Assembly: GCF_001729485.1 (NCBI RefSeq)
Contig: NZ_CP017157.1
Coordinates: forward strand, 4,402,001-4,466,000
From: Streptomyces lydicus
Lineage (GTDB): Bacteria; Actinomycetota; Actinomycetes; Streptomycetales; Streptomycetaceae
Direction: 5' to 3'
Length of the DNA stretch: 64,000 bases
This document shows positions 33,991 to 40,188 of the stretch, piece by piece. The notes beneath the pieces are model-generated. The model was not told the DNA's origin. It saw only the letters and a program-made list of their open reading frames with translations, and did no database searches. Each line of letters begins with the position of its first letter. Positions within the stretch are counted from its first letter, which is position 1. A program made the translations under genes and the position numbers.

Positions 33991-34764
33991 CTAGAAAGCG
34001 GAGTTGGCGAACCAACGCAGGAGCAGATCCTGATCGCCTACGACCGCGACGACCTCGGCGTCGTGGCGCCGACGACCGTAGAGCAGCAGGAGGAGGTCGG
34101 CCGCGGTCGCCTCGACGGTCGCGTCCACCGTGACGTCCGCCGTACGGCCGGCCGGGGCGAGCCCGAAGCCGTCGGGGCGCAGGGTGACGAGCCAGTCGGC
34201 GTCCGCGTCAGTGGCGCGGAAGCGGAGGGTGTCGCCGGCCCCGCGCAGGTTGGCCACCTTGGGGGCGAAGAACGCGGCGAAGGGCAGGTTGACGAGGAAC
34301 TCGTCGATGCCGTCGATCGCGAGCGCGCGGTCGATGACGGGCGGGAGCCCGAGGGCCAGCTCGGCGTCGACCCGGTGCACCAACGTCTCGAAGAGCATCC
34401 GGCGCGCCCAGAAGCGGGCGTGCTGGTCAGCACCCCAGGCCCACATCGGCAGGTTCGGGTCGGTGGCCGCGAACGCCTCGGCGGCCACGGCCGCGCTCTC
34501 CTCCAGCCAGCGGGGGTACGCGTCGGCGCTCGCCGGGAGCCGAAGCTCCACCTCACGGCTTTGCGGGGGACTTTGGATGCGCGCGTGCAGCAGCACCGAG
34601 AACCAGCGCTGCACACTTCCGGCGTGCTTGACCAGCTCGGCCAGCGTCCAGTCGGGGCAGGTGGGCACGGGGGTTGCCAGGTCGGCCCCGTTGAGGACGG
34701 CGGTGAACTTCGCGGTCTCGGCCGCCACGGCTGCGTGGTGGTCGACGGACTGCCGGTGGGTCAT
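33991..34764 (-). CDS. Mycothiol-dependent maleylpyruvate isomerase-like protein (DinB superfamily)
   Basis: A 257-residue protein. The N-terminal DinB-like four-helix bundle has the metal-site His positions of the family (VDHHAAV, LVKHAGSVQRW, LVHRVDAELA), and the C-terminal domain (about residues 165-250, DADADWLVTLRPDGF onward) is the small alpha/beta domain of mycothiol-dependent maleylpyruvate isomerases. Such proteins use mycothiol or related thiols; the substrate is rarely known. GAAGGAACGAG precedes ATG 34764. Same strand as the RHH operon but separated from it by the palindrome. Confidence 0.82.
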   Translation of the reverse strand: MTHRQSVDHHAAVAAETAKFTAVLNGADLATPVPTCPDWTLAELVKHAGSVQRWFSVLLHARIQSPPQSREVELRLPASADAYPRWLEESAAVAAEAFAATDPNLPMWAWGADQHARFWARRMLFETLVHRVDAELALGLPPVIDRALAIDGIDEFLVNLPFAAFFAPKVANLRGAGDTLRFRATDADADWLVTLRPDGFGLAPAGRTADVTVDATVEATAADLLLLLYGRRRHDAEVVAVVGDQDLLLRWFANSAF

Positions 34765-36680: not shown

Positions 36681-37104
36681 CTGTGGAACCGCTCCTCGTC
36701 GCGCGTCGGTCGGTGGTGGGTGTGTCGGTTGCGGATACGTCGGTCGATGGTTCGGCCGTGCTGGCCCGCTACCCGTGATCAGAGGCGCCATGCTCAACGG
36801 CCCATGAGGGAACAGTCGGAGCCTGGTCGTCGCCCCCACGGGCCGCAGGTGCACTCAGCACGGCGCTGCGCCCGGCCCGCGCGCCCCGCCGGTCACCCGC
36901 CGCCCCAAGGGCAACGACACGGGGGCGCCAACTCACGCACGCACAGGCGGGTTTCAGTGGAGGGGAGCTGGGAGATCCTCCTGGCCGACGTGATCGCCAT
37001 GTGTGGCGTGTCGGTGAGGCGCGGAGGGAGCGTTCGTCCCGAGAGGACGGGGAAGGCAAAGAGGTATACACACTCCTTGCCACTCTCAACTTATAGCGCA
37101 CCGG
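36681..37104. other. Intergenic region upstream of the rifamycin-associated element
   Basis: 424 bp without a convincing gene. A comparatively AT-rich part at 37055-37100 (GTATACACACTCC, ACTTATAGCG) immediately before the element probably holds the promoter of the helR unit. Confidence 0.5.
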
Positions 37105-37123
37105 GGGGCTTGCGGCAAGGCCC
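37105..37123 (+). promoter_or_regulatory. Rifamycin-associated element (RAE)
   Basis: GGGGCTTGCGGCAAGGCCC matches the published 19-bp RAE consensus, an imperfect inverted repeat found upstream of actinomycete genes induced by rifamycins (rgt, rph, rox, helR). It lies 79 bp before the glycosyltransferase remnant and 227 bp before helR. Confidence 0.9.
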
Positions 37124-37183
37124 CGGCCGTGGGGCACAATCACGGATCCACGCCAGAACCTGCGGAAATGGGGGATTCACGAA

Positions 37184-37327
37184 GTGCATGTGCTGTTGTC
37201 GGTTTATGGGTCGTGCGGTGATGTCGAGCCGGTGGTGGGAGACGCACTGCCGGTGCGGGCGCTCGGCACCGGGACGCGGGTGTGCGCACCGTCGGCCGTC
37301 CCGGCGGCGACCTCGGATCGGAGCTGA
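37184..37327 (+). pseudogene. N-terminal remnant of a glycosyltransferase (Rgt-like)
   Basis: A 47-codon frame from GTG 37184 to TGA 37327, with GGGGGA as ribosome binding site. It reads HVLLSVYGSCGDVEPVVG, then RALGTGTRVCAPSA, which matches the first strand and GxxGDVxP motif of GT1/GT28 glycosyltransferases (usually VLLSTYGSRGDVEPLV...VRVCAPPD). The frame then ends; the acceptor and nucleotide-sugar domains are absent. Because rifamycin glycosyltransferase genes (rgt) are one of the classes found behind an RAE, an rgt ancestor is the natural inference. The stop is 4 bp before the helR ATG. Confidence 0.65.
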
Positions 37328-37331
37328 TGAC

Positions 37332-39503
37332 ATGAATCCCCTGACCACCAGCGCATTCGACCTCCCCGACCGCCTCTCCCCCAAGGCCGACCCGACGCTC
37401 ATCGCCGGCGACGAACAGCACCTCGCCGCCGTCGCGGAGAGCCTCGAACGGACGATTGCCGAGGTGTCCGACCGTCTCGACGCCGAGCGCAGGGCGCCCG
37501 GCGGCACGGGCCGGCAGGCGATGGAGCGGGACGCGGAGATACACCGGCTGACCGCTCGTCTGCGTGCGCTGCGCCGCTTCGGTCTGGACCTGTGCCTCGG
37601 ACACATGGTCAGCGCGGACCACCCCGAGCCCGTCTACGTCGGACGACTCGGCCTCACGGACAGCTCAGGTCGCCGGCTGCTGGTCGACTGGCGCTCCCCC
37701 GCGGCCGAGCCGTTCTTCGGAGCCACCCACGCCAACCCGATGGGTCTGGCCAGCCGCCGCAGGTACCGCTGGACCCGCGGCCGGATCAGCGACTACTGGG
37801 ACGAGGTGTTCACCCCGGACGGTTTTGCCGGGCACGCCGCGCTCGACGACCAGTCCGCCTTCATCGCCAGCCTGGGCGGCAACAGGTCGGAGCGCATGCG
37901 CGACGTGCTCGGCACCATCCAGGCCGACCAGGACGCCATCATCCGTGCGGGTTCCCGGGGCGCCCTGGTCGTCGACGGCGGTCCGGGTACGGGCAAGACC
38001 GTCGTCGCCCTGCACCGCTCCGCGTACCTCCTCTATTCCGACCCCCACCTGAATCAGCGTCGGGGCGGTGTGCTGTTCGTCGGTCCGCACCGGCCCTATC
38101 TGGCCTACGTGTCCGACGTCCTCCCCAGCCTCGGAGAGGAGGGCGTGCAGACCTGCATCCTGCGGGACCTCGTCGCCGAGGGGGCGGCGGCGACGGCGGA
38201 GACCGACACTGAGGTGGCCCGCCTGAAGTCGTCCGCGGACATGGTGCAGGCGATCGAGAAGGCCGTCTGGTTCTACGAAGAGCCGCCCGCCGAGGGGATG
38301 ACGGTCACAACCGACTGGTCCGACATCTGGCTGAGTGCCGACGACTGGGCCGAAGCGTTCGACGCACCGGATCCGGGCACTCCGCACAACGAGGCGCGCG
38401 GGCAGATATGGGAAGAGCTGGTCGCGATCCTGACGGACAAGCTCGACGCCGACGTCTCCCCGCACCTCTTCCGACGGTCGCTGATGCAGGACGAGGAGCT
38501 GGTCACCACCTTCCACCGCGCGTGGCCGCTGCTCGAAGCGGCCGACCTCGTCGGGGACCTGTGGTCGGTGCCCGCGTATCTGCGGATGTGCGCTCCCTGG
38601 CTCAGCCGCGACGAGGTGCGCAAGCTGCAGCGCAAGGAGGCACCCCATGCCTGGACGGTGTCCGACCTGCCGCTCCTCGACGCGGCGCGGCAGCGGCTCG
38701 GTGACCCGGAGGCGGCGCGGCGCAAGCGCCGGAACGAGGCCATCCTCGCCGCGCAGCGCGAGCGCATGGCGCAGGTCGTCGACAACCTGATCGAGGCCGC
38801 GGCGAGCTCCGGCGCCGACGGTGACGACGGCGAAGGTCTGGTGACCATGCTGCGCGGTCAGGACGCCCAGGTCAGCCTGATCGACGAGTCCGAGCTGCCC
38901 ACCGCCGAACCGGACCGGCTCGCCGGCCCGTTCGCGCACATCGTCGTGGACGAGGCCCAGGAACTGACCGACGCGGAGTGGCAGATGCTGTTGCTGCGGT
39001 GCCCGTCCCGGAGCTTCACCATCGTCGGGGACCGGGCTCAGGCCAGGCACGGCTTCACAGAGTCCTGGCAGGAACGGCTCCAGCGGATCGGGCTCGACCG
39101 GATCAACCTGGCGTCCCTTGGCATCAACTACCGGACGCCGGAGGAAGTCATGGCGGAAGCCGAGCCGGTCATCCGGGCCGCGCTCCCGGACGCCAATGTC
39201 CCGACCTCCGTCCGCAGCAGCGGCCTCCCCGTCGTGCACGGACCGGTGTCCGACCTGGAAGCGGTCCTCGACACCTGGCTCGCCGCCCACGCCGACGGCA
39301 TCGCCTGCGTGATCGGCGACCCCACGTTCCGGGCGACGTCCCGCGTCCGGTCGCTGACCCCCGAGCTGGCGAAGGGCCTTGAGTTCGACCTGGTCGTCCT
39401 CATCGACCCGGAGGCGTTCGGCGAGGGTATCGAGGGCGCGGTGGACCGCTATGTCGCGATGACCCGGGCGACCCGGCAACTGGTCGTCCTCACCACACCG
39501 TGA
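37332..39503 (+). CDS. helR: HelR, RNA-polymerase-recycling helicase-like ATPase
   Basis: A 723-residue superfamily I (UvrD/Rep-like) protein related to HelD. Walker A GGPGTGKT is at about residue 217, Walker B VVDEAQEL at about 540, and VGDRAQARHGF and NYRTPEE are helicase motifs III/IV. The N-terminal 150 residues (coiled ERTIAEVSDRLDAERRAPGG, then FGLDLCLGHMVSADHPEPVY) match the HelR arm that enters the RNA polymerase channel. HelR of Streptomyces venezuelae displaces rifamycins from stalled polymerase and gives tolerance; an RAE upstream supports the same role here. ATG 37332; the frame is open further up but without sense. Confidence 0.93.
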   Translation: MNPLTTSAFDLPDRLSPKADPTLIAGDEQHLAAVAESLERTIAEVSDRLDAERRAPGGTGRQAMERDAEIHRLTARLRALRRFGLDLCLGHMVSADHPEPVYVGRLGLTDSSGRRLLVDWRSPAAEPFFGATHANPMGLASRRRYRWTRGRISDYWDEVFTPDGFAGHAALDDQSAFIASLGGNRSERMRDVLGTIQADQDAIIRAGSRGALVVDGGPGTGKTVVALHRSAYLLYSDPHLNQRRGGVLFVGPHRPYLAYVSDVLPSLGEEGVQTCILRDLVAEGAAATAETDTEVARLKSSADMVQAIEKAVWFYEEPPAEGMTVTTDWSDIWLSADDWAEAFDAPDPGTPHNEARGQIWEELVAILTDKLDADVSPHLFRRSLMQDEELVTTFHRAWPLLEAADLVGDLWSVPAYLRMCAPWLSRDEVRKLQRKEAPHAWTVSDLPLLDAARQRLGDPEAARRKRRNEAILAAQRERMAQVVDNLIEAAASSGADGDDGEGLVTMLRGQDAQVSLIDESELPTAEPDRLAGPFAHIVVDEAQELTDAEWQMLLLRCPSRSFTIVGDRAQARHGFTESWQERLQRIGLDRINLASLGINYRTPEEVMAEAEPVIRAALPDANVPTSVRSSGLPVVHGPVSDLEAVLDTWLAAHADGIACVIGDPTFRATSRVRSLTPELAKGLEFDLVVLIDPEAFGEGIEGAVDRYVAMTRATRQLVVLTTP

Positions 39504-39531: not shown

Positions 39532-40188
39532 TCAGCCGAGGAACAGCGGGAGTTTCGCGGCCAGGTCACCCAGTGCGGCCTGCTCCGCTTCGGTCGGGGC
39601 GCGCCGTCCGGTGCCGATCAGCAGCGCGTCCCGGTCGGAGAACGAAGGGGGAAACGCCGTGCCGGCGATCTTCTCCAGCAGTTCGCGCGCCCCGGCGAGC
39701 CCCTCGGCGGGCGGTTCCGCCGCCTCCGGGAGGTGCGCGATCAGGTCGAGGTGGTGCAGCGTCCATTCCAGGACGTACGCGGAAAGGTAGTCGCCCGTCG
39801 TGAGCACCTCGTCGCGGGTGCGCACACGGGTGGCGGGGTCGGCGAGTCGGGCGGCGCGGCCGGCGGCGGAGCCGACGTCGTCGAGGTGGAACTTGAGCAG
39901 CCACGGCTCCCCGTACGCGGCGGCCAGGCGGACGGTCAGCGCGTCGAGCGGGTCCTCGCCCGTGGGCGGCGTTGCGGCGACGTCCCAGTAGGTCGCCGCG
40001 TCCCGGGTCGGTTCCGTGTCGGCAGGGGTGACGAGGGTGATCAGGACGTCCTGAGCGTCGATGACCAGGTGGCACGCCAGGTCCCGCACGAGCCAGCCGG
40101 TGCAGCCGGAGGGACGCGCGAAGTCCTCGTCCGGGAGATCGGCGACCGCGGTGCGCAACGCCGCCCAGGAACGTGCGAAGAGATCCAC
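39532..40188 (-). CDS. Maleylpyruvate isomerase N-terminal domain protein (DinB superfamily)
   Basis: A 218-residue DinB-like protein with the family pattern ARSWAALRTAVADLPDEDF, GWLVRDLACHLVIDAQD and LEWTLHHLDLIAHL, which carry the candidate metal-binding His residues. It lacks the separate C-terminal domain seen in the protein at 33991. Function unknown, presumably mycothiol-linked. GTG 40188 has no ribosome binding site; TAGCTT, 6 bp upstream, overlaps the stop of the next gene and suggests a leaderless transcript. Confidence 0.78.
   Translation of the reverse strand: MDLFARSWAALRTAVADLPDEDFARPSGCTGWLVRDLACHLVIDAQDVLITLVTPADTEPTRDAATYWDVAATPPTGEDPLDALTVRLAAAYGEPWLLKFHLDDVGSAAGRAARLADPATRVRTRDEVLTTGDYLSAYVLEWTLHHLDLIAHLPEAAEPPAEGLAGARELLEKIAGTAFPPSFSDRDALLIGTGRRAPTEAEQAALGDLAAKLPLFLG

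Follow-up and report, generated by a model that had tools for sequence, protein, structure and literature searches.

The window, the whole stretch of 64,000 nt of Streptomyces lydicus DNA analysed here, carries on its plus strand a helR gene preceded by a rifamycin-associated element (RAE) and a short open reading frame. The elements of this locus are:

37092..37097, + strand: TATAGC, putative -10 element of P1, its role taken from the layout given for mycobacterial helD in PMC10719064
37105..37123, + strand: RAE, GGGGCTTGCGGCAAGGCCC, exact 19-bp consensus, palindromic; contains TTGCGG (37110-37115), the putative -35 element of P2
37135..37140, + strand: CACAAT, putative -10 element of P2
37170..37175, + strand: GGGGGA, Shine-Dalgarno (SD) sequence inherited from rgt
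37184..37327, + strand: leader ORF, GTG start, 47 codons in total, then TGA; matches NCBIfam Rgt
37320..37323, + strand: GGAG, helR's own SD, overlapping the last leader codons
37332..39503, + strand: helR, 723 aa, predicted rifamycin-protection RNA polymerase motor (NF041254 motor_HelR)

At full length, helR reaches 1297.6 bits against NF041254 motor_HelR (cut-off 750). The leader TGA (37325-37327) falls between helR's SD and its ATG, and 4 nt separate the end of the ORF from this ATG. An earlier note made from the letters alone had described an RAE followed by a 47-codon ORF with its ribosome binding site, ending 4 nt before helR, and this observation is confirmed. On either side helR is flanked by a minus-strand gene (39535-40188 and 33994-34764) whose product carries the N-terminal domain of mycothiol maleylpyruvate isomerases (Pfam MDMPI_N). 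A scan with up to three mismatches returned two RAE matches, the two strands of the single site at 37105-37123, where 0.08 were expected.

For comparison, 205 distinct helR loci were assembled from the best 80 of 559 matches, 130 of the 186 HelR-bearing genomes present among 295 genomes of the same genus, and the window itself, minus six duplicates. Since the first 80 loci are the best matches, the sample leans to near relatives. An RAE with at most three mismatches is present in 194 of the 205 loci (at most one mismatch: 181). Exactly 13 nt before its start a TATAGC-like hexamer occurs in 189 of these 194, and CA[CGA]AAT or CACACT stands at exactly RAE+30 in 176. The spacing of P1 -10, RAE and P2 -10 seen at 37092-37140 is therefore almost rigid across loci. 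This arrangement resembles that of mycobacterial helD, for which PMC10719064 describes a P1/RAE/P2 layout with the RAE overlapping the -35 element of P2. A sigma-70 and terminator consensus scan of 36900-37400 gave no match.

Origin of the short ORF

Residues 1-38 of the leader ORF match NCBIfam NF000354 Rgt, the rifamycin glycosyltransferase (E 1.1e-7, 31.4 bits); against Pfam nothing was found at E<=1. The family is delimited at full length with a cut-off of 800, and these 31.4 bits over residues 1-38 of 411 stay far below it. As the earlier note had supposed, the ORF is by this match a remnant of Rgt and not itself an Rgt. A tblastn match of 36 aa connects the leader peptide with the strain's own Rgt-like protein at 53% identity, and when a protein database was searched with the 47 residues one relative came up, a hypothetical protein from Streptomyces lydicus that is also 47 aa long. 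Compared with the rifamycin-inactivating Rgt, the stump is alike in its first 38 residues and in the spacing of its start after the RAE, but it is devoid of about 370 residues and with them of the catalytic part.

The gene order RAE-rgt-helR, which the earlier note had suggested looking for in related strains, indeed exists: a long rgt (same strand, more than 300 aligned residues) lies between RAE and helR in 60 of the 205 loci. Fifty-two of these loci have an RAE with at most three mismatches, and 50 of the 52 place the rgt start 76-82 nt downstream of the RAE start. In the window this distance is 79 nt, the spacing of intact RAE-rgt-helR loci. Because of these long rgt genes and the matching spacing, comparison shows the 47-codon ORF to be the 5' end of an rgt that suffered a deletion at about codon 40 within the RAE-rgt-helR arrangement. 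It consists of the rgt start and about 40 rgt codons, followed by about 7 codons of helR-proximal DNA, the junction being judged by eye on the locus sequences. At least 24 loci share the leader, so it is no one-off, and relatives are further shortened or fused to helR.

The alignment of this class holds 24 loci, 23 with a separate ORF and one (L198) running into helR. As they had been picked by having a start codon, loci without one were listed too: of 26 loci then counted, 24 keep the start and two have lost it, L247 (GTA in its place) and L134 (5' half deleted), both assigned to the class by eye; others such as L250 are possible descendants that could not be assigned.

Conservation within the remnant

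Over the 24 loci, mean pairwise difference is 0.000 at the leader start, 0.051 in the RAE, 0.055 in the leader SD and 0.085 in the P2 -10 element, versus 0.304 in the spacer after the RAE, 0.254 in codons 2-6 and approximately 0.30 in codons 7-40 (range over codons 2-40: 0.25-0.31). All 24 aligned members start with GTG. The leader SD and start codon are thus as conserved as the RAE; when SD plus start were compared with the body of the ORF, none of 102 slid masks and none of 100,000 random column sets were equally conserved. The encoded peptide behaves differently. In the 13 loci of equal length its pN/pS is 1.2, or 1.21 once L009 and L184 are left out; Rgt codons 2-37 of 50 intact loci give 0.32 and helR codons 9-53 give 0.50. 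The three codon positions of the leader differ by 0.304, 0.303 and 0.229. A selected leader peptide was rejected on these figures; judged by them, the peptide looks unconstrained.

The frame is nevertheless kept open. None of the 13 equal-length copies has a premature stop, where 4.65 were expected by simulation (P=0.003, under a star-tree null simulated from the consensus). Stops occur in 5 and 11 of the 13 copies in the other two forward frames, the consensus of the latter frame already holding one. Eleven class members deviate from the start-to-helR length of 148, eight of them by a whole number of codons; a binomial test at 1/3 that ignores relatedness puts P at about 0.009. In L009 there seems to be a compensated frameshift inside the leader ORF. 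A conserved start and an open frame kept against drift, both to be expected of a translated leader, are thus found in the comparison. The earlier note's suggestion that the remnant may act as a translated leader gains support from this conservation of SD, start codon and frame.

Could the stump be an inert relic that drifts, with helR using its own start only? The unconstrained peptide and the loss of the start in L247 and L134 would fit. However, a relic should not conserve SD and start like the RAE while its body varies, nor be expected to stay free of premature stops in 13 of 13 copies under the star-tree null, and we consider this explanation improbable. Far less credible still is a drug-sensing attenuator, in which the peptide or its codons would respond to rifamycin or to stalled transcription and thereby switch helR. 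It is suggested by the position of a short ORF before a resistance gene, which the leader has in common with the erm leader peptides (PMC5118997); different from these, the leader in the window has no conserved peptide, and no masking structure was found. RNA folding of 23 loci, with the RNA start assumed, gave no support for a masking of helR's SD by leader RNA: its mean probability of being unpaired was 0.37, versus 0.36 after shuffling of the leaders, and it was lower than in the shuffles in 12 of 23 loci. The absence of terminator-like sites from 36900-37400 also speaks against attenuation. Finally, rifamycins act on RNA polymerase and not on ribosomes.

Fate of the rgt start at helR loci

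Of the 142 RAE loci that have no long rgt, 93 (1.4 expected) hold an rgt-like start according to a matrix built from 58 intact rgt starts, in 90 of the 93 at +76 to +81. These starts meet different fates. Forty open a separate ORF ending at most 60 nt from helR (the L class), 34 run in frame into helR, 18 stop more than 60 nt before it and one opens a long in-frame remnant. In the L class the leader stops at -4 or -1 in 31 of 40 loci, and helR's own SD and start were found by script pattern in 38. By the same pattern 26 of the 34 in-frame loci have no helR SD and start. Seven of these 26 still carry another in-frame start codon (e.g. L019 and L016); in the remaining 19 no further one exists past the first six codons, so that helR can hardly be started elsewhere in such fused loci. 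Among the eight other in-frame loci, L239 and L246 were scored as having their own helR start on a doubtful site. An example of a fusion is L157, in which VRVLLSVDGACGDAEP runs into SAFDLPDHL; in L023 and L225 only the first few rgt residues are left. Named strains with a fused form include Streptomyces aureocirculatus NRRL ISP-5386 (L080), S. lateritius JCM 4389 (L078) and S. spinosisporus 7R016 (L023). From these predicted starts we conclude that the ribosome-loading site of rgt is kept and often reused for helR. RAE and helR are 43-53 nt apart in L181, L249 and L153, where helR begins so near the putative P2 -10 element that almost no leader would be left on its mRNA.

A general kind of arrangement is the translated leader ORF to which a downstream gene is coupled through termination-reinitiation. 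Like such leaders, the stump in the window is a short ORF that ends 4 nt short of the following start codon, with the SD of the following gene inside it and an unconstrained peptide; unlike them, it derives from the deletion of a resistance gene, relatives fuse its start to the downstream gene, and the coupling itself is deduced. We propose that rifamycin-induced transcripts from the putative P2 would start near 37147, that ribosomes would first load at the old rgt start (37184), read 47 codons of indifferent identity, stop at the TGA between helR's SD and ATG and then restart on helR, by which a high HelR output from the RAE transcript would be ensured. Selection would act on ribosome loading and on an open path, not on the peptide. 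That the stump of the window is such a sequence-blind leader coupled to helR we give a probability of about 0.65.

The main rival, which we nonetheless regard as unlikely, is a role against polarity or in shielding the mRNA: leader translation would protect some 150 nt of nascent RNA against Rho or nucleases, and helR would be started independently from its own SD. It explains the conserved SD, start and openness without constraint on the peptide equally well, and finds a further argument in helR's own SD and start being kept throughout nearly the whole L class. Alone it does not account for the fusions, in which the rgt start takes over helR. The frequent stops at -4 or -1 count against it too, but weakly, because helR's SD region supplies those stops. 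Both coupling and shielding predict a loss of helR output once the leader start is removed.

Several observations count against coupling of leader and helR. In evolution the leader is dispensable: among the 142 RAE loci that have no long rgt, an rgt-like start is missing from 49, which weighs against shielding as well and would suit an inert relic. The 18 loci mentioned above hold an rgt start yet stop more than 60 nt upstream of helR. In 22 loci that do not belong to the 47-codon class, the three possible frames with respect to helR's own start occur 12, 5 and 5 times, without a clear bias, and helR's SD region alone supplies stops in two frames. Since 45 of 60 loci leave 59-217 nt between the end of an intact rgt and helR, tight coupling is not usual in the intact form.

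More generally, the comparison suggests that after deletion of rgt its loading site has repeatedly been kept and passed to helR, be it through in-frame fusion or as a coupled leader whose peptide does not matter. HelR of many species would then carry the initial residues of a different resistance enzyme at its N-terminus and depend on that start for its rifamycin-induced output. To this wider proposal we assign an even chance.

The history of these loci was followed on a HelR tree (FastTree, 148 rows), which is poorly resolved, with 58 of 145 inner branches open, and biased in its make-up because 40 rows were added by hand, mostly from short-ORF and fused loci. The window falls within a branch of 61 rows (support 100), together with most of the class (22 of 24 members). 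The 108 rows not picked by hand divide into 29 on this branch and 79 outside it. On the branch, 12 belong to the class, 3 have other short ORFs and 4 are fused, while 5 lack an rgt start and another 5 carry a long rgt; of the 79, a long rgt is found in 32 and the class once. The number of state changes on the tree, compared with the mean after shuffling, is 18 versus 33 for long rgt, 23 versus 28 for fused loci, 22 versus 26 for loci without an rgt start and 20 versus 22.5 for the 47-codon class (33 of 500 shuffles as low). We read this as an old deletion that gave the 47-codon stump, followed by more shortening and fusions. Transfer of the helR locus is possible as well. As the states scatter on the HelR tree, no number of independent events is given.

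With the RAE-controlled rifamycin resistance genes (rgt, rox, rph, helR) the locus shares the same exact RAE with helR downstream, but here a truncated rgt stands in between, of which the translation start and the open frame alone are conserved. Neither an rgt stump before helR nor a fusion of the rgt start to HelR was found in titles and abstracts of openly licensed papers; the primary HelR and RAE papers lie outside that scope and could describe it, and novelty is provisional. The locus points to a way in which an inducible gene pair can lose one member while the promoter and ribosome-start site of the lost gene pass to the other; living relatives show the intact, the stump and the fused form. 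It offers a natural system for testing whether a leader can be selected for being translated regardless of the encoded peptide. Furthermore, it gives warning that the N-terminus of HelR may be misread in some Streptomyces.

Further RAE-linked genes in the genome

To the earlier note this looked like a locus where inactivation by glucosylation had been lost and target protection remained. The loss is not borne out for the strain, which keeps a second, full-length Rgt-like gene with its own RAE at C1:3966121 and, if the predicted activity holds, need not have lost glucosylation. This gene (407 aa) scores 511.6 bits, under the NF000354 cut-off of 800, a strict threshold reached by none of the 295 genomes. 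In a whole-genome search with three mismatches RAE matches were no commoner than in a backward-read control (7 forward and 6 reverse, versus 10 and 11), therefore only the sites with 0-1 mismatch were used. They occur at four places, adjoining the Rgt-like gene, rph, rox and helR; the three sites other than that of helR (C1:3966001, C1:4325323 and C1:4555483) have one mismatch each. Rph scores 739.5 bits, the gene being cut by the locus end, and rox 903.1 bits, over its cut-off. With these neighbours the strain has four predicted RAE-linked rifamycin resistance genes.

An Rgt-like gene (E<1e-100, at any genomic place) exists in 30 of the 89 genomes whose helR locus is without a long rgt, among them 7 of the 16 genomes in the 47-codon class. 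In L051 a divergent but long match to Rgt, with 409 aligned residues, lies at -2012 to -804 from helR, upstream of the stump-helR unit, accompanied by an RAE-like site with three mismatches at -744.
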